From NCBI RefSeq assembly GCF_000165795.1, contig NZ_CM001022.1, positions 682,001 to 746,000 on the forward strand: 64,000 nt of DNA, read 5' to 3'. Positions 1 to 48,588 of this stretch are shown in pieces. A program made the translations under genes and the position numbers. Every line of letters begins with the position of its first letter. Position 1 is the first letter of the stretch. Origin of the DNA: Aminomonas paucivorans DSM 12260. GTDB lineage: Bacteria; Synergistota; Synergistia; Synergistales; Synergistaceae. The notes beneath the pieces were generated by a model. The model ran no database searches. It was not told the origin of the DNA and saw nothing but the letters and a program-made list of their open reading frames with translations.

Positions 1-3492
<3,492 letters not shown>

Positions 3493-3564
3493 CATCTTTC
3501 TCTTGTGGTCGGTCTCCGGCCTGTCCGGGAGGACAGGATCTTGGAGGAGCGATTGCAGACAAGT

Positions 3565-3682
3565 TTCTGGTGGCCCTAGCGGAGGGGACACACCCGGATC
3601 CATGCCGAACCCGGTCGTTAAGCCCTCCAGCGCCGATGGTACTACGGGGGGTACCCGTGGGAGAGTAGGTCGCCGCCAGAAT
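3565..3682 (+). rRNA. 5S ribosomal RNA
   Basis: A 5S-like sequence of about 118 bases, 72 bases after 23S. The termini (TTCTGGTGGC and GCCGCCAGAA) pair as helix I, and the internal tract CCGAACCCGG at about 3604-3613 is typical of 5S loop B and helix III. No tRNA follows it before the terminator. Confidence 0.93.
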
Positions 3683-8095: not shown

Positions 8096-9001
8096 TTGGA
8101 AGGAGCGGGAAAGGAAGGGCGAAGGGGCCTCCTGGCGGCCTTCGGGGCCTATGTCCTCTGGGGGATCCTGCCGGTATACTGGCGTGCCCTGCACGGGGTG
8201 GGGGCCCCGGAGATCCTGTGCCACCGAATCCTCTGGTCCGTGGTGGTGCTGGCGGGAGTCCTGGGGGCCACCCGTCGAGGGGGGGAAGTCCGGGAGATCT
8301 TCCGTCGCCCACGGGTGGCGGCCCTCCTGGTGTGCAGCGGGGTGACCATCGGGGCGAACTGGCTGCTGTTCATCTGGGCGGTGAACAGCGGGCGCATCCT
8401 GGAGAGCAGTCTGGGGTACTACATCAACCCCCTGGTGAACGTGGTCTTCGGGGTGCTCTTCCTTCGGGAGCGGCTGCGTCCCCTCCAGGCTCTGGCGGTG
8501 GGGTGCGCCTTCCTGGGGGTGGCCCTGGAGGTGGGGCGCTACGGGTCCCTGCCCTGGGTGGCCTTGGGGCTGGCGTCCACCTTCGGTCTCTACGGCCTGC
8601 TGCGCAAGCTGGCCCCCGTGGAGGCCGCCCCGGGGCTCTTCGTGGAGACCCTGTACCTGGCGCCCCTTTCCCTGGGGTATCTGGTCTTCCTGGGGCTGAC
8701 GGGGGGGCAGGCCTTCGGGCCCGCCGATCCGGGGAGATCCCTGCTCCTGGCGGGGGCGGGGCTGGTCACGTCGGTGCCCCTGCTGCTCTTCGGCTTCGGG
8801 GCGCGGCGCATCTCCCTGTGCACCCTGGGGCTGGCGCAGTACGTCTCTCCCACCCTCACCTTCGCCTTGGGGGTCTGGGCCTACGGGGAGACCTTCTCCC
8901 CCGGTCGGGGGCAGACCCTGGCGTTCGTCCTGGGAGCCCTGGTCCTGTACACCGCCGATGCCCTGCGGCAAGCGGGAAGGGAGAGGGCTCTGCAATCCTG
9001 A
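8096..9001 (+). CDS. rarD: EamA-family transporter, RarD-like
   Basis: A 301-residue polytopic protein with about ten hydrophobic helices and two tandem EamA halves, the length of the RarD family. The opening GLLAAFGAYVLWGILPVYW (residues 11-29) is characteristic of RarD; the family name comes from chloramphenicol sensitivity, and the substrate is unknown. No ATG precedes the first helix at a sensible distance. The TTG at 8096 is preceded by AAGGAAGGGGG at an 8-base spacing, so I use it. The gene diverges from the APC permease and runs into the VOC gene 67 bases later. Confidence 0.85.
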   Translation: MEGAGKEGRRGLLAAFGAYVLWGILPVYWRALHGVGAPEILCHRILWSVVVLAGVLGATRRGGEVREIFRRPRVAALLVCSGVTIGANWLLFIWAVNSGRILESSLGYYINPLVNVVFGVLFLRERLRPLQALAVGCAFLGVALEVGRYGSLPWVALGLASTFGLYGLLRKLAPVEAAPGLFVETLYLAPLSLGYLVFLGLTGGQAFGPADPGRSLLLAGAGLVTSVPLLLFGFGARRISLCTLGLAQYVSPTLTFALGVWAYGETFSPGRGQTLAFVLGALVLYTADALRQAGRERALQS

Positions 9002-9492: not shown

Positions 9493-11289
9493 TCAGGGAT
9501 TCCAGCGCCACCCCCGGCAGGGTTTGGCGAAGGACCGGTTGAGCCCGGAGGGGGAGAACTCCCGGCCGTAGAAACGTTCGTAGAACTCCTGGGCCTCCGA
9601 GGTCAGGTCGAAGGACGCCCGATCCGGGTGCAGGCAGTTGGCCAGGTGCAGGAGCCCCAGGATCCACCGGGGGCTGCCGAAGTCCCATCCCGGGGCGGGA
9701 TGGGGGTGCACCTGGCGCCTTCGGGTGGCCTCCACCCGAACCCCCGCCTCCTGGCAGTCCCGCAGCAGGTCCTCCCGGGAGGAGGAGATGAAGGCGGAGA
9801 CGAACAGGTGCTCCGGGTTCAGGTCGTTCAGGGTCCTGGCCTCCAGGGTGGCCCCGGGCCGTCCGTCGAAGGCCAGCCTCTTGTTGACGCTCTCTCCCCC
9901 CGCCAGCTCCACCAGGTTGTTCTCCAGCCTTTCCCCCTTCAGGGCGAAGAGGGCCTTGCCCATGGCGTAGTAGGCCCGGGGGCGTCTGGGGGCGGAGGCC
10001 ACGGCGAGGCGCACCCGGTCCATCCGGTCTTCCAGGTACGAGGCCAGTTCCCGGGCCTCCCGGGGAGCCCCCACGAGGGCTCCGAACCGGCGCACCAGCC
10101 CCGGGTAGCTCTCCGGGCGCTGGACCTCCCGGTGAAGCCGCATCAGGCCGTCTCCCGTGAGCACCTCCTCCCACGCCCGCACCACCCTGCCCCGGTCCCG
10201 CACCCCCAGGGGGATGAGGAGGGCTTCCACCATTTCCAGGGCCCGGGTGAAGGGGTATCCCCCCAGGAAGTCCCCTTCCCGGAACTCCGCCTCCCGAAAC
10301 GCCTCCCCCTTGGTGAAGGGAAGTTCCGCCCCGCACCCTCCGCAGGCCCGGGCCCCCGAAAGGGAGGGGGCGGCGTCCATCAGCCGGGCTCCCATGGGGC
10401 CGTAGAAGTCCCGGCGGTAGAGGACGCGGCCGCAGACGGGGCAGAGGGTGTGGAGGAGCGGGGTTCCGGGGGAGTTGAACAGGTACACGAAGGGAGAGTC
10501 CCGGCGCAGGGCGGCGCAGAGGGCCTCCGCCTCCCGGATGGAGGGTTCCAGGGAGGCCTCCGCGTCCTCGAAGGGGAGGAAGCGCATCACCTGCAGGGGG
10601 ATGGAGGGAGAGACCCCCCGCAGAAGCCGGGCCACCTCCTCCAGGGTCTTCTCGTCCCCCTTGCGGAAGATGCAGGAGACCTCCACGTGCACCCCTCCGG
10701 CGTGCAGCGCCCGAAGGTTCCGCAGGACCGGGGCGACGGAGCTTCCCCCGCAGGCCCGGTAGACCTCCTGGGAGAGTCCCTTGAGCCCCAGGTTGACGAA
10801 GTCCAGGTGGGGCAGGAGCGTCTCCAGGGCTTCCCGGGTGAAGGTGCCGTTGGTGGCGCAGCCCGCGGCGAGGCCCTGCCTTCGGGCCTCCTTGGCCACT
10901 TCCCGGAAGGTGAAGAAGGAGGCAAGCGGGTCGTTCATCAGGAAGGCCACCCCCGAGCAGCCCCGGTTTCGGGCCTCCCGGACCACCTCCTCCGGGGAAA
11001 GGTGCCGCAGGGCCGGGCTTGCCCCGTCCATCTCCCGGACCAGGGTGGTCGAGATGCACCCGGGGCAGCAGAGGTTGCACCCCGTGGTGCTGATCTGGAG
11101 CACCACGGCCCCGGGGCGGTAGTGCAGCAGGGGGACGGTCTCCACGGAGACCGGCGTGGCCACGAGGTAGCGGTGGGGGTAGCGCTCCTCCATGACCCCG
11201 CCCCGACGCCGATAGAGGCCGCAGGCTCCCTCGCCCCCTTCGGGGACGGCGCAGTTCCGTTCGCAGATCCCGCAGGTCGTCCCGCTCAT
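9493..11289 (-). CDS. radical SAM enzyme fused to the C-terminal lobe of a FecB/BtuF-type binding protein
   Basis: A 598-residue protein with three parts. Residues 1-270 form a PflA/AmmeMemoRadiSam-like radical SAM domain with an N-terminal cysteine motif (CGICERNC, C6-C13) and the cluster motif C71-x3-C75-x2-C78. Two CxxC pairs (C283/C286 and C316/C319) form a probable zinc ribbon. Residues 385-575 align by pattern with the second lobe of the substrate-binding protein encoded at 12469-13530 (YYA-G start, ELAGGE, LNPEHLFVSA, GWDFGSPRWILGLLHLAN, EAQEFYERFYG). No signal peptide is present, so this half-binding-protein should be cytoplasmic. It is the last gene of the chelate-transport operon, and its ATG overlaps the methyltransferase stop (ATGA). 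Function is inferred: acting on an imported metal chelate or cofactor. The fusion is unusual. Confidence 0.85.
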   Translation of the reverse strand: MSGTTCGICERNCAVPEGGEGACGLYRRRGGVMEERYPHRYLVATPVSVETVPLLHYRPGAVVLQISTTGCNLCCPGCISTTLVREMDGASPALRHLSPEEVVREARNRGCSGVAFLMNDPLASFFTFREVAKEARRQGLAAGCATNGTFTREALETLLPHLDFVNLGLKGLSQEVYRACGGSSVAPVLRNLRALHAGGVHVEVSCIFRKGDEKTLEEVARLLRGVSPSIPLQVMRFLPFEDAEASLEPSIREAEALCAALRRDSPFVYLFNSPGTPLLHTLCPVCGRVLYRRDFYGPMGARLMDAAPSLSGARACGGCGAELPFTKGEAFREAEFREGDFLGGYPFTRALEMVEALLIPLGVRDRGRVVRAWEEVLTGDGLMRLHREVQRPESYPGLVRRFGALVGAPREARELASYLEDRMDRVRLAVASAPRRPRAYYAMGKALFALKGERLENNLVELAGGESVNKRLAFDGRPGATLEARTLNDLNPEHLFVSAFISSSREDLLRDCQEAGVRVEATRRRQVHPHPAPGWDFGSPRWILGLLHLANCLHPDRASFDLTSEAQEFYERFYGREFSPSGLNRSFAKPCRGWRWNP

Positions 11290-11912
11290 GCCCCCTCCCC
11301 CTTTCGGAAGCGGATCCAGAACCCCTCGTCGTCGTTCTGGACCTCCCGATGGAGGATGCCCGCCCCGTCCAGGGCACGGAGGAACCGCTCCCGAAGGTCC
11401 TGGCTGGTGTGCTTTTCCACCATGGGGCGCCACTGGGGGTCCCGAAGCCGCATGGCTCCGGCGATCTTCTGCTTCAGCTCTCCGGTGCCGAAGCCGCCGC
11501 CGATCCAGGCGAAGCCCCCCGGGGCCAGGACCCGGAGGATCTCCCCGAAGGCCTTCTCCGGATCGTCCCAGAAGAAGAGGGACCCCCGGCTCACCGCCAG
11601 GTGGAAGGTGTCCTCCGGGAAGGGCAGGGCGTGCACGTCTCCCTCCACCGTGCGGGTGTTTGTCGCCAGGGGGCTGGCGGCCACGTTGCGCCGGGCGAGG
11701 CGCAGCATCTCCGGGTCCCGGTCCAGAAGGCAGACCTCCAGGTCCGTCAGCTGGGCCAGGGCCAGGCCCAGCAGCCCCGGTCCCGTCCCCACGTCCAGGC
11801 AGCGCCCCCGGCGGACCCCGGTGCCGCACAGGATCTGGTGGGCCACCACCGGGTAGAGGGGGGCGAAGACCTCCCGAGCGATGCGGTCGAACCCCTCCGG
11901 ATCGGTCCTCAT
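11286..11912 (-). CDS. class I SAM-dependent methyltransferase
   Basis: A 208-residue methyltransferase of the UbiE/Methyltransf_11 type. The SAM-binding loop LDVGTGPGLLGLAL spans about 39-52, the acidic end of strand 2 is LLDRD and the post-loop motif is EGDVHALPFPEDTFHLAVS. It lies inside the chelate-uptake operon, overlapping the NTPase stop (ATGA at 11909-11912) and the radical-SAM start, which implies strict translational coupling. The substrate is unknown. Given the operon, it may methylate the imported chelator or a corrinoid- or tetrapyrrole-like cofactor; this is inference only. Confidence 0.87.
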   Translation of the reverse strand: MRTDPEGFDRIAREVFAPLYPVVAHQILCGTGVRRGRCLDVGTGPGLLGLALAQLTDLEVCLLDRDPEMLRLARRNVAASPLATNTRTVEGDVHALPFPEDTFHLAVSRGSLFFWDDPEKAFGEILRVLAPGGFAWIGGGFGTGELKQKIAGAMRLRDPQWRPMVEKHTSQDLRERFLRALDGAGILHREVQNDDEGFWIRFRKGEGA

Positions 11913-12460
11913 GCGCTGGCCTCCCGGGAACCCGCCGAGGCCGCCAGGAGGGACCGCGTCGCCTCCAGGACCCGGAGGAACAGATCGTCCCGGTTTTCCC
12001 GGGTCGTCTCGAAGACCCGCACGTCCCCCCGGGCCCGGATGAGGGCGGGGAGGAGGGCCTGGGGTTTCTTCGACAGGACCCCCAGGACGGGGACGGGGGA
12101 ATCGAGGCAGGCCAGGACGCTTGCCCGAAAGGCCGGGGCGTCGTTCTCCAGAAAGCCGATCTCGTCCATCACCAGCAGCGGCGGGGCCGCAGCCAGGGCG
12201 CGGCGGCAGCAGCGCACCCCGTAGTCCTCGAAGGTGTGCAGGCAGGGGCGCGCCCCCCCCTCGGGAGTCCAGCGGGCGATCCAGGGGGTTGCGCCGTCCC
12301 CGGGAAGGGCCTCCATGCAAAACCCCCGCAGGAGCCCTCCTCCCTCGACGGGGCGGGTGCAAAACCCCCGGGGGGCCGCGCCCAGGGCCGCCACCACCCG
12401 GCCCAGGAGGGTGCTCTTGCCCACCTGGACGTCGCCGGTGAGGAACAGGTTCTTTTCCAC
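11909..12460 (-). CDS. nucleoside-triphosphatase, THEP1/NTPase_1 family
   Basis: A 183-residue P-loop protein. The Walker A sequence GDVQVGKST is at 9-17, and the Walker B-like LLVMDEIGFLE sits near the middle. Both match THEP1-type nucleoside-triphosphatases, which are related to adenylate kinase folds and have unknown cellular roles. The GTG at 12460 is preferred because AAGGAAGGAG lies about 11 bases upstream. Another GTG at 12472 would overlap the binding-protein stop but has no spacing for a ribosome site. Genes of this family sometimes lie beside metal or cofactor transport genes, as here. Confidence 0.85.
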   Translation of the reverse strand: MEKNLFLTGDVQVGKSTLLGRVVAALGAAPRGFCTRPVEGGGLLRGFCMEALPGDGATPWIARWTPEGGARPCLHTFEDYGVRCCRRALAAAPPLLVMDEIGFLENDAPAFRASVLACLDSPVPVLGVLSKKPQALLPALIRARGDVRVFETTRENRDDLFLRVLEATRSLLAASAGSREASA

Positions 12461-12468
12461 GGGAAGGC

Positions 12469-13530
12469 TCACTCCTTCCTTACGGAGTGCCGCAGGATGT
12501 CCCGGGCCTCCTCCGCCGTCAGATCGTAGCGCCAGAAGAGGCGGTAGAAGCGCTGGGCTTCCTTCACCAGGTCGTACCGAAAGACCTCCGGGTAGATCAG
12601 CGCCGCCGCCCAGCGCACTCCCAGGAGCCGGTTCACCCCCGGGGGCCGGTCGAACCAGCAGAAGGGGTTGTCGGGCACCGCGTAGACCCTTCGATTCGCC
12701 ACCGCCCGCAGGGTCTTCCAGTTCGGGTCCGAGAGGATCCCGTCGTAGGCCCCTCCCCGGGAGGTTCCCCAGGCCAGGATCAGGTCCGGATCCCACAGGT
12801 GGATCTGTTCCAGGGAGGCTGCGGACATGCCGTTGAGCCCTCCCTGGGGCACCTCCGCCACGTTGGTCGCCCCCACCAGGTCCAGGATCTGGCTGTGCCG
12901 GGAGCCCGAAGGCTCGGTCTGCAGCCCCTTGGGTCCCTCGGCGTAGTAGACCCGGACCCGCTTTTCCCGGGGGATCCCGCGGGCCTTGTCGGCCACGTCC
13001 CGCAGGGTCTCCCGGCAGTAGGCCCCCAGCGCCTCCGCCCGCTTCGTCTCCCCCAGGAGCTTTCCCAGGAAGGCGTAGGTCCGGTCCAGCCGGGTCAGCT
13101 CGTAGTCCAGCACCACCACGGGGATGCCCGCCTGCTCCTGAAGCCGATCCGCCAGGGAGCGGGTGGAGGCGTCCAGGGGGCCCATGTGGAGGAACAGGTC
13201 CGGCCGGTGTTTCAGGATCTCCTCCACGTTGCCCTTCTGGGTGGAGAACCACCCCCCCAGCACGGGAAGCTCCGCGTAGGCCCGGGGAAGGAAGCGCTTC
13301 TCCTCCGGACGCAGGGGGAAGTTCCAGCCCAGCAGCCGGTCCGGGGCCAGGGTGTAGAGAATGGTGGCGGCGATGGGGTTGACGCAGAAGACCCGGGAGA
13401 CCTTCGCGGGCAGGGCGACCGTCCTTCCCGCCATGTCCGTCACGTTCCGTCCTCCCGCCTGAGCCGCCGCAACCCACAAAACCACCGCTCCCAGGGCCAG
13501 TGCCGCCGTCCGCAACCTTCGGTTCCTCAT
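12469..13530 (-). CDS. ABC transporter substrate-binding protein, iron-siderophore/cobalamin type
   Basis: A 353-residue secreted protein with a signal peptide at 1-25 ending AAQA-GG and a TroA-superfamily fold (PF01497 type). The first lobe begins VTDMAGRTVALPAKVSRV, the family's usual start; the second lobe has SAASLEQIHLWDPDLILAW and a tail EAQRFYRLFWRYD. It should deliver a chelated metal (ferric siderophore, corrinoid or similar) to the FecCD-like permease encoded upstream. No lipobox is seen, so it is probably a free periplasmic protein. It lies 30 bases after the ATPase gene. Confidence 0.9.
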   Translation of the reverse strand: MRNRRLRTAALALGAVVLWVAAAQAGGRNVTDMAGRTVALPAKVSRVFCVNPIAATILYTLAPDRLLGWNFPLRPEEKRFLPRAYAELPVLGGWFSTQKGNVEEILKHRPDLFLHMGPLDASTRSLADRLQEQAGIPVVVLDYELTRLDRTYAFLGKLLGETKRAEALGAYCRETLRDVADKARGIPREKRVRVYYAEGPKGLQTEPSGSRHSQILDLVGATNVAEVPQGGLNGMSAASLEQIHLWDPDLILAWGTSRGGAYDGILSDPNWKTLRAVANRRVYAVPDNPFCWFDRPPGVNRLLGVRWAAALIYPEVFRYDLVKEAQRFYRLFWRYDLTAEEARDILRHSVRKE

Positions 13531-13560
13531 GTCCTTCCTCCTTATGCGATCGTCTTGCTC

Positions 13561-14340
13561 TCACCCTTGACGGGGCACGCAGACCCTTCTGTCTCCGTGT
13601 TTCCCTCCGAGGCGGACGATGTCCACCTCCACCCCGTAGAGGGTCTTCAGGTTTCGGGGAGTGAGGACCTCCTCCGGCGGGCCCGGGCTCAGGTGCCCTC
13701 CCCCGTGGAACCCCAGGACCTGATGGGCGCACAGAAAGGCGTGTTCCGGGAAATGGGTGGACACCAGGACCCCCATGCCCCTCCGTCCCATCTGTTCGAT
13801 GCGCCGCAGCACCAGAAGCTGTTTGCCGAAGTCCAGGCTGGTGGTGGGCTCGTCCAGGACGAGGAACCGGGGTTCCTGCGCCAGCGCCCGGGCCAACAGG
13901 ACCAGCTGCCGCTCTCCTCCGCTGAGTTCCGTCACCGGGCGTTCTCCCAGGTGGCGCGCCCCCACCGCCTCCAGTGCCTCCTCCGCCAGCCTCCGGTCCT
14001 TCCCGGAGGGGGACGCGAAGAGCCCCAGCCGACAGGTGCGCCCCATGAGGACCACGTCCCGCGCCCGGAAGGAGAAGAGGGGTTCCCGGGCCTGGGGGAC
14101 GTAACCCAGGGCCTGCGCCCTTCGGGCCGCGGGCCAGGGGAGGAGGTCCTCCCCGTCCAGGAGGATGCTCCCTCCCAGGGAGGGCAGCAGTCCCAGGATC
14201 GTCTTGAAGAAGGTGGTCTTCCCCGCCCCGTTGGGACCCAGAAGGCAGAGGACCCGCCCCTCCTCCAGGGTCAGGGACACGTCCCGGACCACCTCCCTCC
14301 CCCGGTAGCCGCAGGAAAGCCCCCGCACCTCCAGGGCCAT
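13561..14340 (-). CDS. ABC transporter ATP-binding protein, FecE/BtuD type
   Basis: A 259-residue ATPase. Walker A is GPNGAGKTT at about 35-43, the signature is LSGGERQLVLLARAL, and Walker B is FLVLDEPTTSLD followed by the switch histidine in STHFPEH. It should drive the neighbouring FecCD-type permease. Its ATG overlaps the permease stop as TGATG. It is similar to the second ATPase at 22987-23796, including the shared IPQ/VPQ and RTPHLG/RTCRLG segments, so the two transporters look like paralogues. Confidence 0.92.
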   Translation of the reverse strand: MALEVRGLSCGYRGREVVRDVSLTLEEGRVLCLLGPNGAGKTTFFKTILGLLPSLGGSILLDGEDLLPWPAARRAQALGYVPQAREPLFSFRARDVVLMGRTCRLGLFASPSGKDRRLAEEALEAVGARHLGERPVTELSGGERQLVLLARALAQEPRFLVLDEPTTSLDFGKQLLVLRRIEQMGRRGMGVLVSTHFPEHAFLCAHQVLGFHGGGHLSPGPPEEVLTPRNLKTLYGVEVDIVRLGGKHGDRRVCVPRQG

Positions 14341-15473
14341 CAGAAGGCGGCTCCCTTTCGGGTGGCCAGCCACAGGAAGAAGGGGACCCCCACCAGGGCC
14401 GTCAGGATGCCCAGGGGAATTTCCACCGCCGCCAGGATTCGCGCCAGGTCGTCCACCAGCAGGAGGAAGACCCCTCCTCCCAGGACGGAGGCGGGCAGAA
14501 GGGCCTTGAAGTCCGACCCCACCGCCATCCGGCAGAGGTGGGGCACCACCAGACCCACCCAGCCGATCATGCCGCACACGGAGATGGCTGCGGCGGTGGC
14601 CAGGGTGGTGCAGAGGATCACCAGCCACCGGAAGCCCCGGACGTTCAGCCCCAGAGCCCGGGCCTCCTCCTCCCCCAGGGAGAGCACGTTGAGGCGCCAG
14701 CGCACCAGGACCAGGGGAGCGATGCCCAGGACCACGGGAGGGAGAAGGAACAGCAGGTCTCGGGGCGCCACGGAGGACAGGCTGCCCATAAGCCAGAAGG
14801 TGATGGCCGGGAGCTTGTCGGAGGGGTCCGCCACGTACTTCACCAGGGAGGTGGCCGCGGTGAAGAGGGACCCGGTCATCACCCCCGCCAGCACCAGCCC
14901 CAGCAGGGGGTTGTGGCGCATCCGGGCCCCCAGGGCGCAGGCCAGCAGGACCGCCCCCAAACCCCAGAGGAAGGCCAGGGCCTGGATTGCCGGAAAGGGC
15001 AGGGAGAGGCAGATCCCCAGGGCCGCCCCGAACCCCGATCCTGCCACCGCTCCCAGGAGTCCCGGAGAGGCCAGGGGGTTGCGGAAGAGCCCCTGGAGGG
15101 CCGCTCCGGAGGCCCCCAGGGAGGCTCCCACCAGCAGCGCCGCCAGGATCCGGGGCAGACGGATGCGGAAGAGAACCGTATCCAGGGCCGAGGGGACCGA
15201 GGCGTCGCTGGCGTTCAGGGCGGTTTCCAAGGCATGGAGGAGCTGCCCCGGGGAGATGGGGTAGCGTCCCACGGCGAAGGAGAGGAGCAGGGCTCCCAGG
15301 GGCAGGGCCCCCCAGAGGAGAAGAGGGCGCAGGAAGGTCTGTTTCCCGAGGGGAAGGGCATCCGGCGCGGGGAGGGAAGGATCGGCTCCGAGGGGAAAGG
15401 GGAACGGGGCCGCCCCCTCGGGGGGAAGGTCCTGGGGCGTTTTCGTCCTGACGCGGGAAGTTTCCAACCCCAT
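14340..15473 (-). CDS. ABC transporter permease, FecCD/BtuC family
   Basis: A 377-residue membrane protein. An unusually long N-terminal extension of about 55 residues, rich in proline, precedes the first helix. About ten hydrophobic helices follow, with the family motifs LRLPRILAALLVGASLGASG and LSGAALQGLFRNPLASP-like text, the cytoplasmic loop to the ATPase (SLGEEEARALGL) and the end IPLGILTALVGVPFFLWL. It forms the translocation channel for the metal chelate. The ATG at 15473 is preceded by AGGAGG. It is the first gene of the eight-gene minus-strand operon; a hairpin and two operator-like palindromes lie in its leader. Confidence 0.9.
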   Translation of the reverse strand: MGLETSRVRTKTPQDLPPEGAAPFPFPLGADPSLPAPDALPLGKQTFLRPLLLWGALPLGALLLSFAVGRYPISPGQLLHALETALNASDASVPSALDTVLFRIRLPRILAALLVGASLGASGAALQGLFRNPLASPGLLGAVAGSGFGAALGICLSLPFPAIQALAFLWGLGAVLLACALGARMRHNPLLGLVLAGVMTGSLFTAATSLVKYVADPSDKLPAITFWLMGSLSSVAPRDLLFLLPPVVLGIAPLVLVRWRLNVLSLGEEEARALGLNVRGFRWLVILCTTLATAAAISVCGMIGWVGLVVPHLCRMAVGSDFKALLPASVLGGGVFLLLVDDLARILAAVEIPLGILTALVGVPFFLWLATRKGAAF

Positions 15474-15504
15474 CGACCTCCTGAGACCCCGAGCATCCCG
15501 GAGG

Positions 15505-15524
15505 CGGGGGCGTCCGAGCCCCCG
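15505..15524 (-). promoter_or_regulatory. leader hairpin of the chelate-transport operon
   Basis: A 7-bp perfect GC stem (15505-15511 with 15518-15524) about 30 bases before the permease start. The second chelate operon has a hairpin at the comparable place (25901-25926). Its role in attenuation or RNA stability is not known. Confidence 0.35.
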
Positions 15525-15549
15525 GAAGAACCACCGGGCTTTCGTTCTT

Positions 15550-15579
15550 GCAATGCAGTTGCTCTTGCAACCAAGTTGC
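15550..15579. promoter_or_regulatory. tandem operator-like palindromes (shared with the second chelate operon)
   Basis: GCAACCAAGTTGC (15567-15579) is a perfect inverted repeat with 5-base arms. A related copy, GCAATGCAGTTGC (15550-15562), lies exactly 17 bases away. A 12-of-13 match to the first copy, GAAACCAAGTTGC, stands in the leader of the other chelate transporter at 26040-26052. A possible -10 element TATCAT (15588-15583, minus strand) adjoins it. I infer a repressor site for a metal- or chelate-responsive regulator that is not encoded nearby. Confidence 0.5.
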
Positions 15580-15708
15580 CACATGATACCACAGTAGGGG
15601 CTTTCCCGCGGGAAGGTCCGGTGTTTCGGGCGAAGACAGCTGGAATGGTTTTTGATAGAATGCTCCGTGGGTGACGGTGTTCACAAATCACCCCGGAGGA
15701 GGAAGGGC

Positions 15709-16533
15709 ATGGAGCGGTGCGAGGATCGGGCGGGAACGAGACTCCCGTCGGAACGGGTCCCCGGTCCCGGGGGGCTTTCGGGGCTTCTGCTGCCCGGGGT
15801 GATCGGGCTCCTCTGGTGGGGGGCCTCCCGCCTGGGGCTCTGGAACCCCTACCTGCTCCCCTCCCCGGAACAGGTCTTCTCCTCCCTGGGTTCCCTGGCC
15901 GCGTCGGGGGAGCTGGCCCGGCACGTGGGGGCCAGTGCGGGGCGCATCGCCGCGGGGTTCGGCCTCTCCTCCCTGGTGGCCCTGCCCCTGGGGGTGCTCT
16001 TGGGACTGCGCCCCCGCCTGGGTCGCCTGGCCTACCCCACCCTGGAGTTTCTGCGTCACGTCCCGCCCCTGGCGGTGCTTCCCCTGCTGATCCTGTGGTT
16101 CGGCATCGGGGAGGGCTCCAAGATGGCGGTGATCCTCCTGGCCACCTTCTTTCCCGTGTTCCTCAACACCCTGGAGGGGGTGCGGCGCTGCGACCCCGGG
16201 CTCCTGGAGGTGGGGCGCACCCTGGGTCTCTCGGAGGGGGAGGGGGTGCGGCGCATCGTGCTGCCCGCTGCCCTGCCCTCCATCCTCACGGGGCTGCGCC
16301 TGGGGCTGGGCTACAGCTGGCGCTCCCTCATCGGGGCGGAACTCATCGCCGCCGCCTCGGGACTGGGCTACCTGATCCACGACGCGGAGGCCCTTTCCCG
16401 GCCCGACGTGATCGTGGCGGGGGTGCTGGTGCTGGGGGTCATCGGGGCCGCTACGGACCACCTCTTCTTCCGCCTTGCCGCCCGGGTCACCCCCTGGCGC
16501 CCCCGGGGGGATGCTCGGGATGGATGGGATTAG
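15709..16533 (+). CDS. ABC transporter permease, SsuC/TauC (nitrate/sulfonate) type
   Basis: A 274-residue inner-membrane protein with six or so hydrophobic helices. The binding-protein-dependent transport motif (EVGRTLGLSEGEGVRRIVLP, about 168-187) has the EAA-type loop that contacts the ATPase. The family imports sulfonates, nitrate, bicarbonate, thiamine precursors or similar small anions; the substrate here is not determined. The ATG has GGAGGAGGAAGGG just upstream. It diverges from the chelate-transport operon and begins a three-gene operon. Confidence 0.88.
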   Translation: MERCEDRAGTRLPSERVPGPGGLSGLLLPGVIGLLWWGASRLGLWNPYLLPSPEQVFSSLGSLAASGELARHVGASAGRIAAGFGLSSLVALPLGVLLGLRPRLGRLAYPTLEFLRHVPPLAVLPLLILWFGIGEGSKMAVILLATFFPVFLNTLEGVRRCDPGLLEVGRTLGLSEGEGVRRIVLPAALPSILTGLRLGLGYSWRSLIGAELIAAASGLGYLIHDAEALSRPDVIVAGVLVLGVIGAATDHLFFRLAARVTPWRPRGDARDGWD

Positions 16534-17302
16534 GCTGGAGGGGGTGCGCCGGGTCTTCCCCCTGGAGGGGGGAGAGGTCCGGGCCTTGGAGGATCTGTCC
16601 CTGCGGGTCCCCTGGGGGTCCCTCACGGCGGTGGTGGGGCGAAGCGGCTGCGGCAAGACCACCCTGCTGCGCCTGGTGGCGGGGCTGAACGAGCCCACGG
16701 CGGGGCGGGTCCGCTTCCTGCAGGGCAGTGAGGACCTCCCCCGGGAGGCGGTACGGGTGGGGCTGGTGTTCCAGGAACCCCGACTCATGCCCTGGCTTTC
16801 CGTGGAGGAGAACCTGGCTTTCCCTCTGGTGGGGCGCCTGGGAAGGGAGGAGATCCGCCGTCGGGTGGACCCCCTCCTGGAACTGCTGGGACTGGAGGGA
16901 TTCCGCCGGGCCCTGCCGGGGCAGATCTCCGGGGGCATGGCCCAGCGGGTGGCCCTGGGGCGTACCCTGGCCCACGACCCGGACGTGGTGCTTCTGGACG
17001 AGCCCTTCGGCTCCCTGGACTACTTCACCCGCCGGGCCCTGCAGGGGGAGATCGGAGAGCTGCACCGGCGCACCGGGAAGACCTTCCTCCTGGTGACCCA
17101 CGACGTGGACGAGGCCCTGGCCCTGGGGGATTCGGTGGTGGTGCTCCGGCAGGGGCGGTTGGCGGACCGGGTGGAGGTTCCCTTCCCCCGGCCCAGGGAC
17201 GTGGATGACCCGGTCTTCGCCCCCCTGAAGCGCTCCGTTCTCGGAGCCATCGGGGGCACGGCGGAGGACCCGGGAAGGACGAAGGAGGTCGAGGCATCTT
17301 GA
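16520..17302 (+). CDS. ABC transporter ATP-binding protein, SsuB/TauB type
   Basis: A 260-residue ATPase with Walker A GRSGCGKTT (about 41-49), signature ISGGMAQRVALGRTL, Walker B VVLLDEPFGSLD and the switch histidine in VTHDVDEAL. It belongs to the nitrate/sulfonate/taurine family and energises the permease before it. The start at 16520 overlaps the permease end by 14 bases and has a G-run 8 bases upstream; an ATG at 16511 is the alternative. The stop overlaps the next gene's TTG. Confidence 0.9.
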   Translation: MDGIRLEGVRRVFPLEGGEVRALEDLSLRVPWGSLTAVVGRSGCGKTTLLRLVAGLNEPTAGRVRFLQGSEDLPREAVRVGLVFQEPRLMPWLSVEENLAFPLVGRLGREEIRRRVDPLLELLGLEGFRRALPGQISGGMAQRVALGRTLAHDPDVVLLDEPFGSLDYFTRRALQGEIGELHRRTGKTFLLVTHDVDEALALGDSVVVLRQGRLADRVEVPFPRPRDVDDPVFAPLKRSVLGAIGGTAEDPGRTKEVEAS

Positions 17303-18231
17303 AACGGTTTTTGTGGGTCCTGTTGGCGGCGGCGGTCTTGGCGGCGGGGACGGCCTGGGCAGGTCCCCAAGACTTGGCGGTGACCTACGTGAAGGCTCCC
17401 CTGAACGTGCCCTCCATCCTGGAGAAGCGGCTGGGGCTCTTCGACAAGGCCTTCGCCCCCCAAGGGATCGCCGTGACCTACCCGGAGCTTCTGGCGGGAC
17501 CCCAGCAGACCCAGGCCCTGGCGGCGGGGTCCGTGCAGGTGGCCCACTGTCTGGGGGGCACCTCCGCTCTGCTGGCGGCGGCGGGAGGCGTGGATCTGAA
17601 GATCGTGGGGATCTACAGCCGGGCGCCTCGGGCCTTCGTGATCCTGGTGAAGGACCCGGCGATCCGCACCGTGGCGGACCTGAAGGGGCGCAAGGTGGCG
17701 GGCCCCAAGGGGACGGTGCTCCACCAGCTCCTGGTGGCGGCGGTGAAGAAGGCGGGGCTGGCCCCCTCGGACGTGCCCCTTCTGGGCATGGGGCTGCCCG
17801 AAGGGGTGGCGGCGCTCCTCTCCGGCGGCGCGGATGCCGCCCTGGCGGCGGGACCGGCGGTGCCCAAGGCGCTGGAGCAGGGGGCCCGGGTGCTGGTGGA
17901 CGGGAAGGGACTGGTGGACGCCACCACGGTCATCGCTATGGCGGGGTCCTTCCTGGCGGAGCATCCGGAACGGGCGCGGCTCTTCCTCAAGACCCACCGG
18001 GCCGCCCTGGCCCGCATGAAGGCCAAGCCCGAGGAGGCGCTGAACCTCACGGCCCAGGAGACGGGGCTGACGCCGGAGGCGGTGAAGGCCATGCTGCCCC
18101 TCTACGACTTCGACCCCACCCTCCGTCCCTCGGACCTGGCGGAGCTGGAGCGCACCCAGGACTTCCTGATGGAAAACGGCATGATGCAGCGCAAGGTGGA
18201 CCTGAAAGGCCTGGTGCGGACGAGCCTGTAG
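17299..18231 (+). CDS. ABC transporter substrate-binding protein, NMT1/SsuA-like
   Basis: A 310-residue secreted protein beginning with a TTG. AAGGAGGT lies 9 bases upstream and the TTG overlaps the ATPase stop. A signal peptide at 1-22 ends TAWA-GPQ. The mature part follows the SsuA/NMT1 pattern: a YVKAPLNVPSILEKRLG opening, a GSVQVAHCLGG ligand loop and KGRKVAGPKGTVLHQLL. It captures the substrate for the SsuBC-like transporter. The ligand is unknown; the family includes aliphatic sulfonate, taurine, nitrate and pyrimidine-precursor binders. A terminator follows directly. Confidence 0.88.
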   Translation: MKRFLWVLLAAAVLAAGTAWAGPQDLAVTYVKAPLNVPSILEKRLGLFDKAFAPQGIAVTYPELLAGPQQTQALAAGSVQVAHCLGGTSALLAAAGGVDLKIVGIYSRAPRAFVILVKDPAIRTVADLKGRKVAGPKGTVLHQLLVAAVKKAGLAPSDVPLLGMGLPEGVAALLSGGADAALAAGPAVPKALEQGARVLVDGKGLVDATTVIAMAGSFLAEHPERARLFLKTHRAALARMKAKPEEALNLTAQETGLTPEAVKAMLPLYDFDPTLRPSDLAELERTQDFLMENGMMQRKVDLKGLVRTSL

Positions 18232-19958: not shown

Positions 19959-20663
19959 ATGGCGGATGGGCGGATCGAAGCGCTTCGGGGGTGGATCCGG
20001 CGGGGTCTGAAGGCCCCCCACGAGTCGGTGAGGTTAGGGGTGCTCCTGGCCCTGGTGGGAGGGTTCCTGGACGCCTACACCTTCCTGGGCTGGGACGGGG
20101 TCTTTGCCAATGCCCAGACGGGGAACCTGGTGCTCATCGGCATCGCCGCCTCCCTGGGGGATTTCCGGCAGATGGGGACCTATCTCCCTCCCATTCTGGC
20201 CTTTGTGGCGGGGGTGTTCGTCGTGGAGGCGGCCAAGTCCTCCTCCCTGTCCGCCCGGCTGGACTGGGGGCGCTTCGCCCTGACTCTGGAGATCCTGACC
20301 CTCACCGTCGTGGGGTTCGCCCCCCGGGGGACCCCACCCCTGTTCGTCAACGCCGCCGTGTCCTTTGTGGCCTCCGTGCAGGTCTGCGCCTTCCGCCGTC
20401 TGGTGGATGCCCCCTACAGCACCACCATGATGACGGGAAACCTGCGGTCCGCCTCTCAGGCCCTCTGGGTCGCCTTGGCCCGAAGGGATCCGGGGGAGCG
20501 GGAGAAGGTGGGGCGCTACCTCACGGTCATCGGCTTCTTCACCCTGGGGGCGCTGATCGGGGGTGTCCTGACCTCCCTGGGGGGAACCCGATCTGTCTGG
20601 GGGGCGGCGGGGCTCCTGGCGGCGGCCCTGAGCCTGTATGTCCGGGAGGGGGCGCCGGACTAG
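19959..20663 (+). CDS. DUF1275 (YoaK-type) membrane protein
   Basis: A 234-residue protein with about six hydrophobic helices. The family hallmark GGFLDAYTFLGWDGVFANAQ (about 34-53) is followed by TGNLVLIGIA, and the second repeat of that pattern appears as STTMMTGNLRSA. The function of DUF1275 is unknown. The gene is 63 bases after the B3/B4 gene. Its stop codon shares CTAG with the stop of the convergent hydE gene, so no terminator separates the two. Confidence 0.87.
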   Translation: MADGRIEALRGWIRRGLKAPHESVRLGVLLALVGGFLDAYTFLGWDGVFANAQTGNLVLIGIAASLGDFRQMGTYLPPILAFVAGVFVVEAAKSSSLSARLDWGRFALTLEILTLTVVGFAPRGTPPLFVNAAVSFVASVQVCAFRRLVDAPYSTTMMTGNLRSASQALWVALARRDPGEREKVGRYLTVIGFFTLGALIGGVLTSLGGTRSVWGAAGLLAAALSLYVREGAPD

Positions 20664-21688
20664 AGGGTCGGTTCGCGGGAGACTTGATCCCGCAGGAAGG
20701 CCAGGGAATCTCCCCGTTCCAGGAGTCCCTTGCGGCCCAGGGAGTGGAGGTGGGCCAGCAGTTCTTCCAGGTCCTCCGCTCCGTCCCGCACCAGGGCCAC
20801 CTTCCCGGGGTAGAGGGTGTAGTGTTCCCGCGCCCCCGGGGGGGTGAGGTTGGGCATGAGCACGTTGGCCCCCGCCGCCAGCATGGCCTCCCGGCCCCCC
20901 GCGTCCCGGGACCCCGCGGCGGTGGTGGCGGGGATGTTGGCCTCGGGAAGGAGCAGTCGCAGCAGTGCCACCAGCCGTACCGTATCTTCCATGGAGCCCG
21001 GCTGGGCCCCCGCCAGGGGGGTGTCCGGATGGGGGAGGAAGGGGCCGATACCCACCATGTGCAGCTTCAGGGAGGCGCAGAGGCGCAGGTTCTCCCGCCT
21101 CGTTTCCTCCGTCTCCCCCGGGAGGCCCACCAGAAAGCCCGACCCCACCTCGAAGCCCCCGTCCCGCAGGTCCTGCAGGGCCTCCAGCCTTCGGGCCAGG
21201 GTCTGCCCGGGCTTGAGGCGGGAGAAGAGTTCCGGGTCGGAGGTCTCGAAGCGCAGCAGATAGCGGTTCGCCCCCGCCTCCGCCAGGCGACGGTAGTCCT
21301 CCCGGCTCTTGATGCCGCAGCTCAGGGTCAGGGCTCCTTGGTCCCCCAGAATGATCCTCAGCCGCTCCGCCAAGCGGCAGAGGCGGTCCGTGGTCCAGTC
21401 CGGGTCCTCGCCCCCCTGAAGGACGAAGGTCCGAAAGCCTCGATCCCAACCCCGCCGCACCGTGGCCTCGATCTGGTCCTCCGTCAGGGAGTAGCGCACC
21501 GCCCGGCCGTTGCCCCCCCGGATGCCGCAGTAGGCGCATCCCTGGGTGCAGCGGTTGGTGAACTCCAGCAGCCCCCTCAGCCACACTCCGTCCCCCACCC
21601 GCCGGCGTCGCACCTCGTCGGCCCGGGCGATCAGCTCCGGCAGGGGCAGGGCCCAGAGGGTCTCCAGGTCAGGCGGAGACGGGTTCAT
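20660..21688 (-). CDS. hydE: [FeFe]-hydrogenase maturation radical SAM protein HydE
   Basis: A 342-residue radical SAM protein of the BioB/ThiH/HydE group. The cluster motif is C47-x3-C51-x2-C54 (CTQGCAYC), and the EFTNRC and LQGGED segments are typical of HydE. It helps build the diiron subcluster of [FeFe]-hydrogenase with HydF and HydG; neither HydG nor a hydrogenase lies in this window. Its start lies 20 bases inside the end of hydF, so the two are co-translated. Confidence 0.93.
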   Translation of the reverse strand: MNPSPPDLETLWALPLPELIARADEVRRRRVGDGVWLRGLLEFTNRCTQGCAYCGIRGGNGRAVRYSLTEDQIEATVRRGWDRGFRTFVLQGGEDPDWTTDRLCRLAERLRIILGDQGALTLSCGIKSREDYRRLAEAGANRYLLRFETSDPELFSRLKPGQTLARRLEALQDLRDGGFEVGSGFLVGLPGETEETRRENLRLCASLKLHMVGIGPFLPHPDTPLAGAQPGSMEDTVRLVALLRLLLPEANIPATTAAGSRDAGGREAMLAAGANVLMPNLTPPGAREHYTLYPGKVALVRDGAEDLEELLAHLHSLGRKGLLERGDSLAFLRDQVSREPTL

Positions 21689-22913
21689 GGCTGCGCCGGA
21701 AGCTGTGGTACAGGGCGTGTTCCACCGGGAAGGGCTCCAGCGCCCGGGGCAGGAGCCCCTTGGCCCAGGCCAGGAAGAGGCCGTAGTTGGTCCCCGGCAC
21801 GTCCGCCTCCCGGAGGAGGGCGATGCGGCGCAGCATGTCGTTGCGGGTGGTCATGCAGCCCGCGCAGTTGATGACGTAGTGGTAGTTTCGCAGCTCCTCC
21901 GGGGAGGGCACGTCCTGGCGCAGCTCGAAGGCGGCCCCGGCCCGCACCAGGCGGCGGAAGAGGTTGGGGATCTTCACCGTGCCGATGTCGTCGTCCATGC
22001 GGTGGTGCTTGCACGATTCCAGCACCAGGACCCGGGGGGATTCGGGCAGCTCCTCCAGCCGCTGGATCCCCTCCACGAAGAAGGCCAGGTCCCCCTTCTT
22101 CCGGGCGAAGAGGATGGAGAAGGACGTGAGAAGCTGGTCCGGCGGCAGGATCTCCCGGACCTCGCTGAAGGCCTGGCTGTCCGTCACCGCCAGGGCGGGG
22201 CGGACCCCCAGGGAGGCGTAGCACGCTCCCAGCTGGTGCTCCTTGGCGATGGCCATGAAGCAGTCCTGGTCCAGGATATCCCGGATCACCTCCACCTGGG
22301 GAAGGATCATCCGGGCCTTGGGGGCGGAGGAGTCGATGGGGGTGATCAGGAGCACCAGGTCGCCCGCCTGCACCAGCCCCTCCAGGGGGGTGATCTCCCG
22401 CTCCACCTGGTCGGAGAACTGGCGCAGGGCGGCGTTCAGGTCCTCGATGCCCCGGCCCGTGAGGTTGTCCACGGCGATCTTGCGGAAACCCGGGGCGAAG
22501 CGCCGCTTGGCCTCGGCGATCTCCCGGTCCGACCGGGTGAGCACCACCAGCACCGGCTTGTCCCGGCGGTGCAGCTCCTCCGTCAGGGCGATCTCGTCGG
22601 AGGTGGGTTCCTCGTCCCCGGGGGTGACGAAGAGCACGATGTCCGCCGTCTCCAGCCTCTTTCGGGACCGCTCCGTCCGCAGGGTTCCCAGCTCGTCCTC
22701 GTCGTCGTCGTACCCCGCCGTGTCCGTCACCGCCACCGGGCCCAGGGCCCCCATCTCCACGCTGCGCACCACCGGGTCCGTGGTGGTGCCGGGGCGGGGC
22801 GAGACGATGGACGCCTCCATGCCCAGCATCCGGTTCACCAGGGAGGATTTCCCCGCGTTGCGCCGCCCGTAGACCACCACGCTGATCTGTTCCGCCAGGG
22901 GAGTTCGGAGCAT
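21669..22913 (-). CDS. hydF: [FeFe]-hydrogenase H-cluster maturation GTPase HydF
   Basis: A 414-residue scaffold GTPase. The G1 loop GRRNAGKS is at 16-23 and G3 DTAG at 64-67. The C-terminal cluster ligands C301-x-H303 and C350-x2-C353 match the HydF pattern CxH(x46)CxxC exactly. It carries the diiron precursor and loads it into the hydrogenase. ATG 22913 has GAGG 7 bases upstream; the in-frame extension to 22967 overlaps the promoter hairpin and is unlikely. It precedes hydE. Confidence 0.94.
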   Translation of the reverse strand: MLRTPLAEQISVVVYGRRNAGKSSLVNRMLGMEASIVSPRPGTTTDPVVRSVEMGALGPVAVTDTAGYDDDEDELGTLRTERSRKRLETADIVLFVTPGDEEPTSDEIALTEELHRRDKPVLVVLTRSDREIAEAKRRFAPGFRKIAVDNLTGRGIEDLNAALRQFSDQVEREITPLEGLVQAGDLVLLITPIDSSAPKARMILPQVEVIRDILDQDCFMAIAKEHQLGACYASLGVRPALAVTDSQAFSEVREILPPDQLLTSFSILFARKKGDLAFFVEGIQRLEELPESPRVLVLESCKHHRMDDDIGTVKIPNLFRRLVRAGAAFELRQDVPSPEELRNYHYVINCAGCMTTRNDMLRRIALLREADVPGTNYGLFLAWAKGLLPRALEPFPVEHALYHSFRRSHEPVSA

Positions 22914-22936
22914 GGATGCGCCTCGTTTCTTTGAAA

Positions 22937-22990
22937 GGGTTTTGGGTTGGATGCCCAAACCCATCATATCGTTTGTTCCTGGGAGGTCAA
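22937..22990 (-). promoter_or_regulatory. hydFE promoter and leader hairpin
   Basis: On the minus strand, TTGACC (22990-22985), a 16-base spacer and TATGAT (22968-22963). The -35 overlaps the stop codon of the upstream ABC ATPase gene. A stem-loop (22937-22946 with 22954-22962, one bulged base) follows immediately. hydFE can therefore be expressed separately from the chelate transporter, and the hairpin may also partly end the upstream transcript. Confidence 0.5.
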
Positions 22991-23796
22991 TGCCGAGGGC
23001 GGGGCTTCGTCAGGGTTTCCTCCGGCAGGGGCACGCAGGTTCGCATGTCCGGGTTTTCCGGTACTTCCAGAACCCGCACCGCCACACCGTAGGCCTCCCG
23101 GATGAGGGATTCGGTGACCACCTCCGAGGGGGTCCCGCAGCGAAGGAAGCGACCGTCCTTGAGGATCGCCGCGGTGCTGGCGGAGGAGAGGGCATGGTCC
23201 GGAACGTGGGAGGTCAGGAGTACCGAAAGACCTTCCCGGGCCAGGGTCCCGAGGGTGCGAAGGAACCGGGTCTGGTTGCCGAAGTCCAGGTGTGCCGTGG
23301 GTTCGTCCAGCAGGAGGAGTTCCGCCTGCTGGGCCAATACCGAAGCCAGCAGCACCAGCTGTCTCTCCCCTCCGCTGATGTCCGTATAGGGGCGGTCCCG
23401 CAGGGGGAGTACCCCCAGGCGGTCCAGGGCTTCCTCCGCCAGGTGTTGGTCCCGCTTTCCGGGGGAGCCGAAGATCCCCAGATGGGGCGTCCTGCCCAGA
23501 AGAGCCACCTCCAGCGCCGTGAAGGGGAAGACGGGGACATGGTTCTGGGGGATGAAGGCCACTCGGCGCGCGATCTCCCGACGTCCCCAGCGGGAGAGGT
23601 CCTGACCGTCCAGGAGGATTTTCCCGGAGGCGAGGGGCAGCAACCCGTCCAGACACTGGAGGAGGGTGGATTTCCCCGTGCCGTTGGGGCCCAAAAGGCA
23701 GAACACTTCGTTGGGTGTCATGTCGAAGCTCAGTCCCCGGAACACCTCCCGCGATCCGGGGTAGGCGAAGGTGGCGTCCCGAACCTGAAGCTTCAT
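22987..23796 (-). CDS. ABC transporter ATP-binding protein, FecE/BtuD type (second locus)
   Basis: A 269-residue ATPase with Walker A GPNGTGKST (about 36-44), signature ISGGERQLVLLASVL, Walker B LLLLDEPTAHLDF and a switch histidine in TSHVPDHAL. It is a paralogue of the ATPase at 13561-14340. It energises the FecCD-like permease whose stop overlaps its start (ATGA). The likely substrate class is an iron-siderophore, haem or corrinoid chelate. Confidence 0.92.
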   Translation of the reverse strand: MKLQVRDATFAYPGSREVFRGLSFDMTPNEVFCLLGPNGTGKSTLLQCLDGLLPLASGKILLDGQDLSRWGRREIARRVAFIPQNHVPVFPFTALEVALLGRTPHLGIFGSPGKRDQHLAEEALDRLGVLPLRDRPYTDISGGERQLVLLASVLAQQAELLLLDEPTAHLDFGNQTRFLRTLGTLAREGLSVLLTSHVPDHALSSASTAAILKDGRFLRCGTPSEVVTESLIREAYGVAVRVLEVPENPDMRTCVPLPEETLTKPRPRH

Positions 23797-24806
23797 CGCC
23801 AGGCCACCCGGTTGCGGCTCAGAAGCCAGGCGAAGAAGGGCGCCCCGATCAGGGCCGTGAGGATTCCCAGGGGGATTTCCGACGCCGAGAGGGTCCGGGA
23901 GAGGGTGTCCACCAGGAGAAGGTAGAAAGAGCCCAGGGAGATGCTTGCGGGGAGGAGGCGGCGGATGTCCGGTCCCACCAGGAGGCGGCCGATGTGGGGG
24001 ATGACCAGCCCCACCCACCCGATCACCCCGGCAAGGCATACGGCGGAAGATGTGAGAAGGGTACAGGCCAGGATGACCAGCCACCTCTCCCGGACCACCT
24101 CCGCCCCCAACGCTTGAGCCTCCTGCTCTCCGAAGGCCAGGAGGTTCAGTCGCCAGCGCAGGGCCAGCAGAACCCCCAGTCCGACCGCCATCATGGGAGC
24201 GACCGCCAGGAGGTTTGTGAGGGAGACCCGGGCGAGGGACCCCATGAGCCAGAACACCATGGCGGGGAGCTTCTCGTAGGGGTCCGCCTGGAACTTCAGC
24301 AGGGAGATCAGGGCGGAGAAGAAGGACCCCACGATGATGCCCCCCAGGACGAGCACCAGGGTGGAGGCTTTGCGGTAGATCCCGCTGAGACCGGTGGCAC
24401 CCAGCACCGCCACCATGCCGAAGAGGGTCGCGGAAAGCTGCACGATCCATCGGGTCTCGGTGAAGAGAATGGCGAGGCAGGCTCCGAACCCCGATCCGGC
24501 GGCGACACCCAAGACGTAGGGAGATACCAGGGGGTTGCGGAACAGTCCCTGGAAAGCGCAGCCCGAAGAGGACAGGGCGGCTCCTACCATCATGGCTCCC
24601 AGGGCCCGAGGCAGACGCAGGTTCCAGAGGACCGTCTCCATGGTGTCGGGCCAATGGGGCGTCAGAGGGAAGAACTTTGCCGCCAGGATCTTCAGCACCG
24701 TCGGCAGAGGGATGGGGTAGCGTCCGAGGGTGAAGGAAAGGAGGAACAGAGTCAGGGGCAGGAGCGGTAGGAGAAGCGCCGCCCTCGCCCCTTGGGGTTT
24801 AATCAT
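23793..24806 (-). CDS. ABC transporter permease, FecCD/BtuC family (second locus)
   Basis: A 337-residue membrane protein with about ten hydrophobic helices and the family landmarks LRLPRALGAMMVGAALSSSG, FQGLFRNPLVSPYVLG and a C-terminal IPLGILTALIGAPFFAWLL. It starts directly with its first helix, unlike the paralogue at 14340-15473, which carries a long N-terminal extension. It overlaps the binding-protein gene by 8 bases, so the three genes form one coupled operon. Confidence 0.92.
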   Translation of the reverse strand: MIKPQGARAALLLPLLPLTLFLLSFTLGRYPIPLPTVLKILAAKFFPLTPHWPDTMETVLWNLRLPRALGAMMVGAALSSSGCAFQGLFRNPLVSPYVLGVAAGSGFGACLAILFTETRWIVQLSATLFGMVAVLGATGLSGIYRKASTLVLVLGGIIVGSFFSALISLLKFQADPYEKLPAMVFWLMGSLARVSLTNLLAVAPMMAVGLGVLLALRWRLNLLAFGEQEAQALGAEVVRERWLVILACTLLTSSAVCLAGVIGWVGLVIPHIGRLLVGPDIRRLLPASISLGSFYLLLVDTLSRTLSASEIPLGILTALIGAPFFAWLLSRNRVAWR

Positions 24807-25875: not shown

Positions 25876-25900
25876 ACGCACATCTCCCCGAGAAACGAAA

Positions 25901-25926: not shown

Positions 25927-26039
25927 GGAGAAACGGCACACCGGAACCCCCTTTCCAAGCGGGAGGCGGTCCCGTTTCCAGGCACGCCCGATGGCCCGAT
26001 TCCTTAGGCGATGCCCTTAGGAAGAGGGGCTCGGAGGTT

Positions 26040-26052
26040 GAAACCAAGTTGC
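26040..26052. promoter_or_regulatory. operator-like site shared with the first chelate operon
   Basis: GAAACCAAGTTGC, one base different from the perfect palindrome at 15567-15579. It lies 8 bases downstream of the -10 element, over the expected transcription start, where a repressor would act. Confidence 0.5.
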
Positions 26053-46108: not shown

Positions 46109-46244
46109 GTTCCGTCATCACAAAAGAGTTGGGCCTCCGAGCCCGGGCAGCCTAAAGGGGAAACCCCATGGCGCCGGGACGTTAGGGTGCAGGGGGAAAC
46201 CGCTGTGCCTCCCTTTCGGAAAGGAGGAACCGGAACGATGCGTC
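46109..46244 (+). promoter_or_regulatory. structured leader RNA, proposed Moco/Tuco-type riboswitch
   Basis: A folded leader before a putative Mo/W operon. Its parts are a core CTCCGAGCC (46135-46143), a stem of GGTGCAG (46186-46192) with CTGTGCC (46203-46209) closing a GGGAAAC loop (46194-46200), an adjoining hairpin (46208-46227) and 3' CGGAAC (46231-46236) able to pair with GTTCCG (46109-46114). The second leader at 48330-48470 has the same parts in the same order. Known Moco riboswitches precede molybdate-transport and cofactor genes, which fits this locus; the class assignment is inferred from context and general resemblance. Confidence 0.6.
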
Positions 46245-48329: not shown

Positions 48330-48470
48330 AGCAAGGCGTTTCCACCCCCGGGGATCCCCGGGTTGTTCGACCCCGAGCCGCAGGCCCTACCGGGAATCAA
48401 CCCCACGGGTCGCGGCCGACAGGGTGGCGCGGGAAACGGCGCCGCCTTCCAGCGAGAAGGGGTTGCTTCG
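48330..48470 (+). promoter_or_regulatory. second structured leader RNA, same class as 46109-46244
   Basis: The leader of the tungstate-uptake genes. It holds CCCCGAGCC (48371-48379), a stem GGTGGCGC (48423-48430) with GCGCCGCC (48439-48446) closing GGGAAAC (48431-48437), and an adjoining hairpin CCTTC/GAAGG (48445-48449 with 48456-48460). Flanking GAGCAA and TTGCTT strands can close it. Three further hairpins follow before the ribosome site (around 48473-48490, 48509-48528 and 48531-48546). It is proposed to be a Moco/Tuco-type riboswitch. Confidence 0.6.
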
Positions 48471-48588
48471 TACCGGTTCTTGTCGAACCGAAGGGTTGCC
48501 TTCCCTTCCTCCGCTGGCGTACGGAGGCTTCCCCGGAGCACCGGGGTGCGTCTCATACACCATTCCACACAAGGAGGAGTCCTTCATC

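Follow-up and report, generated by a model that had tools for sequence, protein, structure and literature searches.

A candidate molybdenum/tungsten acquisition operon of Aminomonas paucivorans encoding an importer, a methyltransferase and a radical SAM/binding protein-like fusion

Organization of the operon

A 64,000-nucleotide (nt) stretch of the Aminomonas paucivorans DSM 12260 genome (NZ_CM001022.1, positions 682,001 to 746,000), hereafter the window, was analyzed with a focus on an operon related to the import of metal compounds. The operon runs on the minus strand from position 15473 to 9493 of the window and consists of six genes in the order permease, ATPase, binding protein, THEP1, methyltransferase (MT) and radical S-adenosylmethionine (SAM) fusion protein (RS), as follows.

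14340-15473, minus strand: FecCD-type (BtuC-like) permease (PF01032, 279.8 bits)
13561-14340, minus strand: ATP-binding cassette (ABC) ATPase (PF00005, 110.8 bits)
12469-13530, minus strand: TroA-type substrate-binding protein (SBP) with a hydrophobic N-terminus (PF01497, Peripla_BP_2, 61.6 bits)
11909-12472, minus strand: THEP1-type P-loop NTPase with a GTG start (PF03266, NTPase_1, 90.3 bits)
11286-11912, minus strand: MT, class I SAM methyltransferase (PF08241, Methyltransf_11, 74.4 bits)
9493-11289, minus strand: RS, a radical SAM/SBP-like fusion of 598 residues (PF04055, Radical_SAM, 67.0 bits)

The family matches of all six products exceeded the Pfam cut-offs. The permease and ATPase genes overlap by TGATG, and the ATPase gene is separated from the binding protein gene by 30 nt. 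The subsequent junctions are overlaps of GTGA between the binding protein and THEP1 genes and of ATGA at both THEP1/MT and MT/RS. The original prediction had described six firm genes chained on one strand under a title that counted eight. The six were confirmed by the coordinates, overlaps and family matches, while the count of eight was not upheld, as no additional small gene was found in the operon. On the strand of the operon, no promoter-like site was detected in its leader.

As PF01032, PF00005 and PF01497 are encoded together, each above its cut-off, the first three genes form a FecCD/BtuCD-type (type II) ABC importer. None of the operon products reached the NCBIfam equivalog cut-offs for B12, haem, iron or siderophore systems, the best scores being 213.8 against 461 for BtuC (permease), 183.6 against 261 for the haem ATPase and 15.6 against 234 for BtuF. 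The nearest solved structures of the binding protein were 4PAG (178 bits) and 4OVK (92 bits), and MolA (3PSA) was matched with 53.8 bits. In the tree, the binding protein of the window and those of the orthologous operons form one clade, which spans three phyla.

Domain architecture of RS

RS is a member of the radical SAM superfamily (67.0 bits against a PF04055 cut-off of 29.5 bits). Its sequence was compared in alignments of 4 and 18 sequences. The radical SAM core covers approximately residues 36-270, and its CX3CX2C motif (C71-C75-C78) is invariant in the 18 aligned sequences. Four further invariant cysteines (C6, C9, C13 and C23) lie at the N-terminus, and the middle of the protein is also cysteine-rich (C283, C286 and C319). 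Pfam and NCBIfam gave no family name for RS beyond the radical SAM superfamily. The AmmeMemoRadiSam radical SAM enzyme model (TIGR04337) was matched over residues 5-306 with 114.1 bits against a cut-off of 220 bits, and RS is thus not a member of that family.

The C-terminal third of RS, which was not named in the original prediction, is probably a shortened TroA/periplasmic-binding-protein fold.

9532-10248, minus strand: TroA/SBP-like domain of RS, approximately residues 348-586 (model of the C-terminal domain and sequence matches)

The match of this domain to Peripla_BP_2 was weak (19.1 bits, below the cut-off). It also matched three binding proteins of the same genome and the solved structures 4HN9, 4PAG and 4OVK in sequence. 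The full-length AlphaFold2 model of RS was poor (pLDDT 60.6); therefore, the C-terminal domain was folded alone, which gave a pLDDT of 76 and a pTM of 0.79. The full-length model matched the PFL-activating enzyme over residues 37-270 (Z 18.6, root-mean-square deviation 3.1, 219 aligned) and TroA proteins over residues 348-586; the fold relatives of the radical SAM part also include NifB. The domain modeled alone matched TroA SBPs with Z 16-18 over 216-228 residues, MolA (3PSA) among them with Z 16.2. The TroA/cluster III fold is recognized by two lobes and a long backbone helix; the RS domain comprises approximately 240 residues, compared with approximately 320 in TroA SBPs, and its N-terminal lobe is shortened and mostly helical in the model. 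Because the radical SAM core precedes this domain and RS carries no signal peptide, the SBP-like domain should be cytosolic. In the tree, the RS domains form a single clade with members from different phyla. Since this clade lies apart from every binding protein, the fusion looks old and appears to have arisen once.

Distribution and conservation

A genome scan with the single sequence yielded just two relatives, and phylum-wide searches were then run with an alignment (A1). Genomes with full-length RS numbered 2 of 185 in the window's phylum, 6 of 398 in the phylum of Desulfocucumis palustris and 8 of 395 in the phylum of Solidesulfovibrio, a rate of approximately 2% of the sampled genomes in three phyla. 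Two order-level searches added three further genomes with RS, one of them frame-broken. The locus set, with the window counted, comprised 20 loci (L numbers below) in 19 genomes.

MT adjoins RS or shares its run in 16 of the 20 loci, and a FecCD permease and/or a TroA binding protein of the same type lies within the run in 14. Among the loci in which the MT stop and the RS start could both be located, the two overlap or lie no more than approximately 30 nt apart in most. The arrangement is not due to chance, because MT followed by RS, with ends that overlap or nearly touch, occurs repeatedly in three phyla. The importer and its accessory enzymes had been predicted to form a conserved unit. This held for MT and for the importer and failed for THEP1, which was found in only two loci. 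The condition named for abandoning that prediction, namely that the accessory genes never lie near such transporters elsewhere, is excluded for MT and RS in three phyla.

THEP1 scored 90.3 bits against the PF03266 cut-off of 23.9, and 67.4 against 156 for the NCBIfam NTPase model, which is below the cut-off. Besides the window, it occurs in L040 of genome G024, where THEP1 and MT share one frame of 403 residues (L008:3276-4487). As it is present in 2 of 20 loci only, THEP1 was rejected as a core part; in its two genomes, it is an added NTPase beside the conserved set. MT reached no NCBIfam equivalog cut-off, and a TrmO-like protein takes its place in L055. DUF364 occurs in six loci. A satellite set was observed in L050 (5967-9032), L044 (207-1757) and L045 (4638-6895); it includes a CobW/HypB-like GTPase in L045 and L050, a soluble ABC-type ATPase in L050, an SBP_bac_6 protein apparently lacking a signal peptide and a second MT.

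Molybdenum cofactor riboswitches and neighboring genes

The molybdenum cofactor (Moco)/tungsten-cofactor riboswitch, RF01055, immediately precedes the operon in three loci, at 93-160 nt from the first operon gene, which is DUF364 in L041 and L042 and the permease in L044. In L043, approximately 219 nt separate it from a downstream MT-RS pair that lacks a transporter. L042 and L043 both belong to genome G423, whose two MT-RS pairs are 17 kb apart, each with its own Moco riboswitch. In all four loci (4/4), a stable hairpin with a T-run lies between the riboswitch and the first gene, which is the layout of a transcription-terminating switch (predicted intrinsic terminator). With RF01055 in their leaders, L041-L044 are part of the Moco riboswitch regulon; the other loci do not carry it. 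The probability that chance alone would place RF01055 within 400 nt in three or more of eight genomes was approximately 8e-9, and 7e-4 after two close relatives were merged and a tenfold intergenic correction was applied.

Genes related to molybdenum (Mo) or tungsten (W) were also found in the neighborhoods. MoeA lies inside the L045 operon, the leader of which holds no Moco or other riboswitch, and beside L040. ModA above its cut-off lies beside L042, L050, L055 and L073. Two AOR (tungsten) genes adjoin L041, FmdE adjoins L042 and an HTH-TOBE regulator adjoins L046. AOR homologues occur in 16 of 18 carrier genomes, a raw count uncorrected for the background rate in the phyla. TonB-dependent receptors were confirmed in four Desulfobacterota loci (L047, L050, L053 and L072), which suggests a substrate of greater size or scarcity than a free oxyanion. 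The DUF364 family has been tied by genome context to the transport of iron, tungstate, vanadium and molybdate and was proposed to assist in making flavin- or pterin-like chelators (PMC2954201).

RF01055 was matched six times in the genome of A. paucivorans itself, and five of these matches lie at 707.9-760.1 kb, within approximately 52 kb, starting approximately 10 kb from the operon. The nearest precedes a paralogous importer.

25932-26048, minus strand: Moco/W-cofactor riboswitch at 10.4 kb from the operon, preceding the paralogous FecCD importer (RF01055, 61.8 bits)
24799-25881, minus strand: paralogous binding protein under the riboswitch (PF01497, 116 bits)
23793-24806, minus strand: paralogous FecCD permease (51% identity with the permease of the operon)

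A further Moco riboswitch is present in the window at 46123-46242, and another where the TupA/TupB-like tungstate transporter genes begin (48359-50187), of which the TupA-like gene (48359-49428) scored 341 bits against a cut-off of 400. A third importer was observed at 494-499 kb of the same genome (L068, 6904-11730), with an SBP, an O-methyltransferase-like gene and DUF364.

Proposed function and alternatives

On the basis of these riboswitches and neighbors, the system very probably concerns Mo or W. The metal assignment is fairly secure, and the chemistry of RS and MT is proposed from their families. In the proposed mechanism, the FecCD-type importer would bring in a metal-ligand complex, with a TonB-dependent receptor added in several Desulfobacterota relatives. 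In the cytosol, the SBP-like domain of RS would bind the imported complex or its ligand, which radical SAM chemistry and the methyltransferase would then alter, and the metal would thereby enter the molybdopterin pathway. In this reading, MT and RS would act on the imported substrate, by processing rather than by synthesis, and the substrate would be a chelate rather than a free oxyanion. The chance that this whole chain holds, from import of a Mo/W complex to processing of its ligand by RS and MT, is judged to be about even. A more specific form can be offered tentatively, namely that an organic Mo/W complex, either a metallophore or a molybdopterin-like cofactor, is imported via the TonB/FecCD machinery and then dismantled or rebuilt by RS and MT. 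Cofactor salvage forced by lost biosynthesis was considered separately and found to be unsupported. Because MoaC is kept in all 18 carriers tested, there is no need to assume that a lost cofactor synthesis is replaced, although salvage as such may occur.

Several observations weigh against the Mo/W acquisition reading. In the window, neither RF01055 nor any other riboswitch was found in the operon's own leader (15440-15760); because of this, the assignment of the operon to the same metal as its relatives rests on the orthologues and on location. Among the nine Desulfobacterota carriers, RF01055 occurs in 0/9 genomes, and thus their Mo/W link rests on the neighboring genes. Approximately half of the 20 loci have no nearby Mo/W marker, and L041, L042 and L043 are near relatives whose RS proteins are 93-96% identical. 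Riboswitch control says nothing about what is transported, and haem, B12 and siderophores are ligands of TroA folds as well. Two loci, L052 and L054, adjoin corrinoid genes. In L052 (8722-11430), RS, here split between two frames, adjoins a gene for a tetrapyrrole methylase and a cobalamin riboswitch (8722-8908), and in L054, genes for a corrinoid methyltransferase and RACo lie beside RS.

The main alternative is that MT and RS make a Mo/W chelator, perhaps a metallophore of the pterin or catechol type, that would be exported, charged with the metal and taken up again through the FecCD importer, with the SBP-like domain binding the product. The transporter-free MT-RS pair of L043 behind its own riboswitch would fit such synthesis, as would the role proposed for DUF364 in making flavin- or pterin-like chelators (PMC2954201) and the methyltransferase that accompanies the DUF364-linked importer of the same genome (L068). 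However, neither an exporter nor enzymes that build a backbone were recognized across the 20 loci, and a cytosolic domain resembling a metal carrier fits the capture of an incoming complex at least equally well. Chelator synthesis is thus considered rather unlikely.

RS and MT could also serve in the maturation of a Mo/W enzyme or cofactor and merely be co-regulated with the importer. The presence of NifB and the PFL-activating enzyme among the fold relatives of RS is consistent with this, as are the AOR homologues of the carriers; however, no particular Mo/W enzyme is repeatedly found next to MT-RS, in contrast to the importer, which accompanies the pair in 14 of 20 loci, and a maturase role is improbable. 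Uptake and remodeling of a corrinoid, haem or iron siderophore, the substrate class favored by the original prediction, would suit the usual cargo of FecCD/TroA importers and the gene neighborhoods of L052 and L054, but it was not supported and is the least probable of the three alternatives, as the operon leaders hold Moco and not cobalamin riboswitches, MoeA, ModA and AOR recur nearby, and the permease, ATPase and SBP remain below all B12, haem and siderophore equivalog cut-offs.

Relation to known systems

The nearest known system for the Mo/W acquisition reading is MolBC-A of Haemophilus influenzae, a FecCD-type (type II) ABC importer of molybdate and tungstate (PMC4031551). The two systems are alike in their FecCD-type permease and TroA-type binding protein, in their linkage to Mo/W and in their transport mode, and MolA (3PSA) is matched by the SBP of the operon in sequence and by the C-terminal domain of RS in fold. 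Assignment to the MolABC importers, which bind molybdate or tungstate, is putative and based on this similarity. Unlike MolBC-A, several relatives of the present system are accompanied by TonB-dependent receptors. To our knowledge, MolBC-A is not accompanied by MT, RS or DUF364.

The N-terminal part of RS resembles the AmmeMemoRadiSam radical SAM enzyme (TIGR04337), but RS reaches half of the curated cut-off, carries an SBP-like domain and sits in an importer operon. RF01055 is known to govern genes for Mo/W transport and cofactor synthesis (Regulski 2008, PMC2408646), and it likewise precedes four orthologous MT-RS operons. Passages of that article name ModABC-type transport and cofactor genes, whereas the present operon does not appear in them. 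DUF364/DUF4213 proteins (3L5O; PMC2954201), for which a role in rare-metal chelation was proposed, adjoin the operon in six loci; however, they are absent from the operon of the window, and copies lie elsewhere in the genome, one of them beside the third importer. In a literature search that had most subscription journals outside its reach, no paper describing the operon was found.

Many pathways of anaerobes are limited by Mo and W, and it is as free oxyanions that the known uptake routes transport these metals. The pairing of a Moco-regulated importer with MT and a radical SAM/SBP fusion suggests that organic Mo/W complexes may likewise serve anaerobes. If true, group 6 metals would have an anaerobic equivalent of siderophore or B12 salvage. 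The analysis yields a set of named genes with which this question can be tested, as well as a radical SAM family, so far without a name, for which a substrate class can be guessed.

Other features of the window

A divergent SsuCBA-like transporter operon (15652-18231) shares the intergenic region with the studied operon, and an SsuCBA-like transporter also precedes MT-RS in L046. Between the two importers of the window, at 20660-22967, FeFe-hydrogenase maturases are encoded, namely a HydE-like protein above the TIGR03956 cut-off and HydF. The end of an rRNA operon, comprising the 3' part of 16S, 23S and 5S, occupies positions 1-3681.

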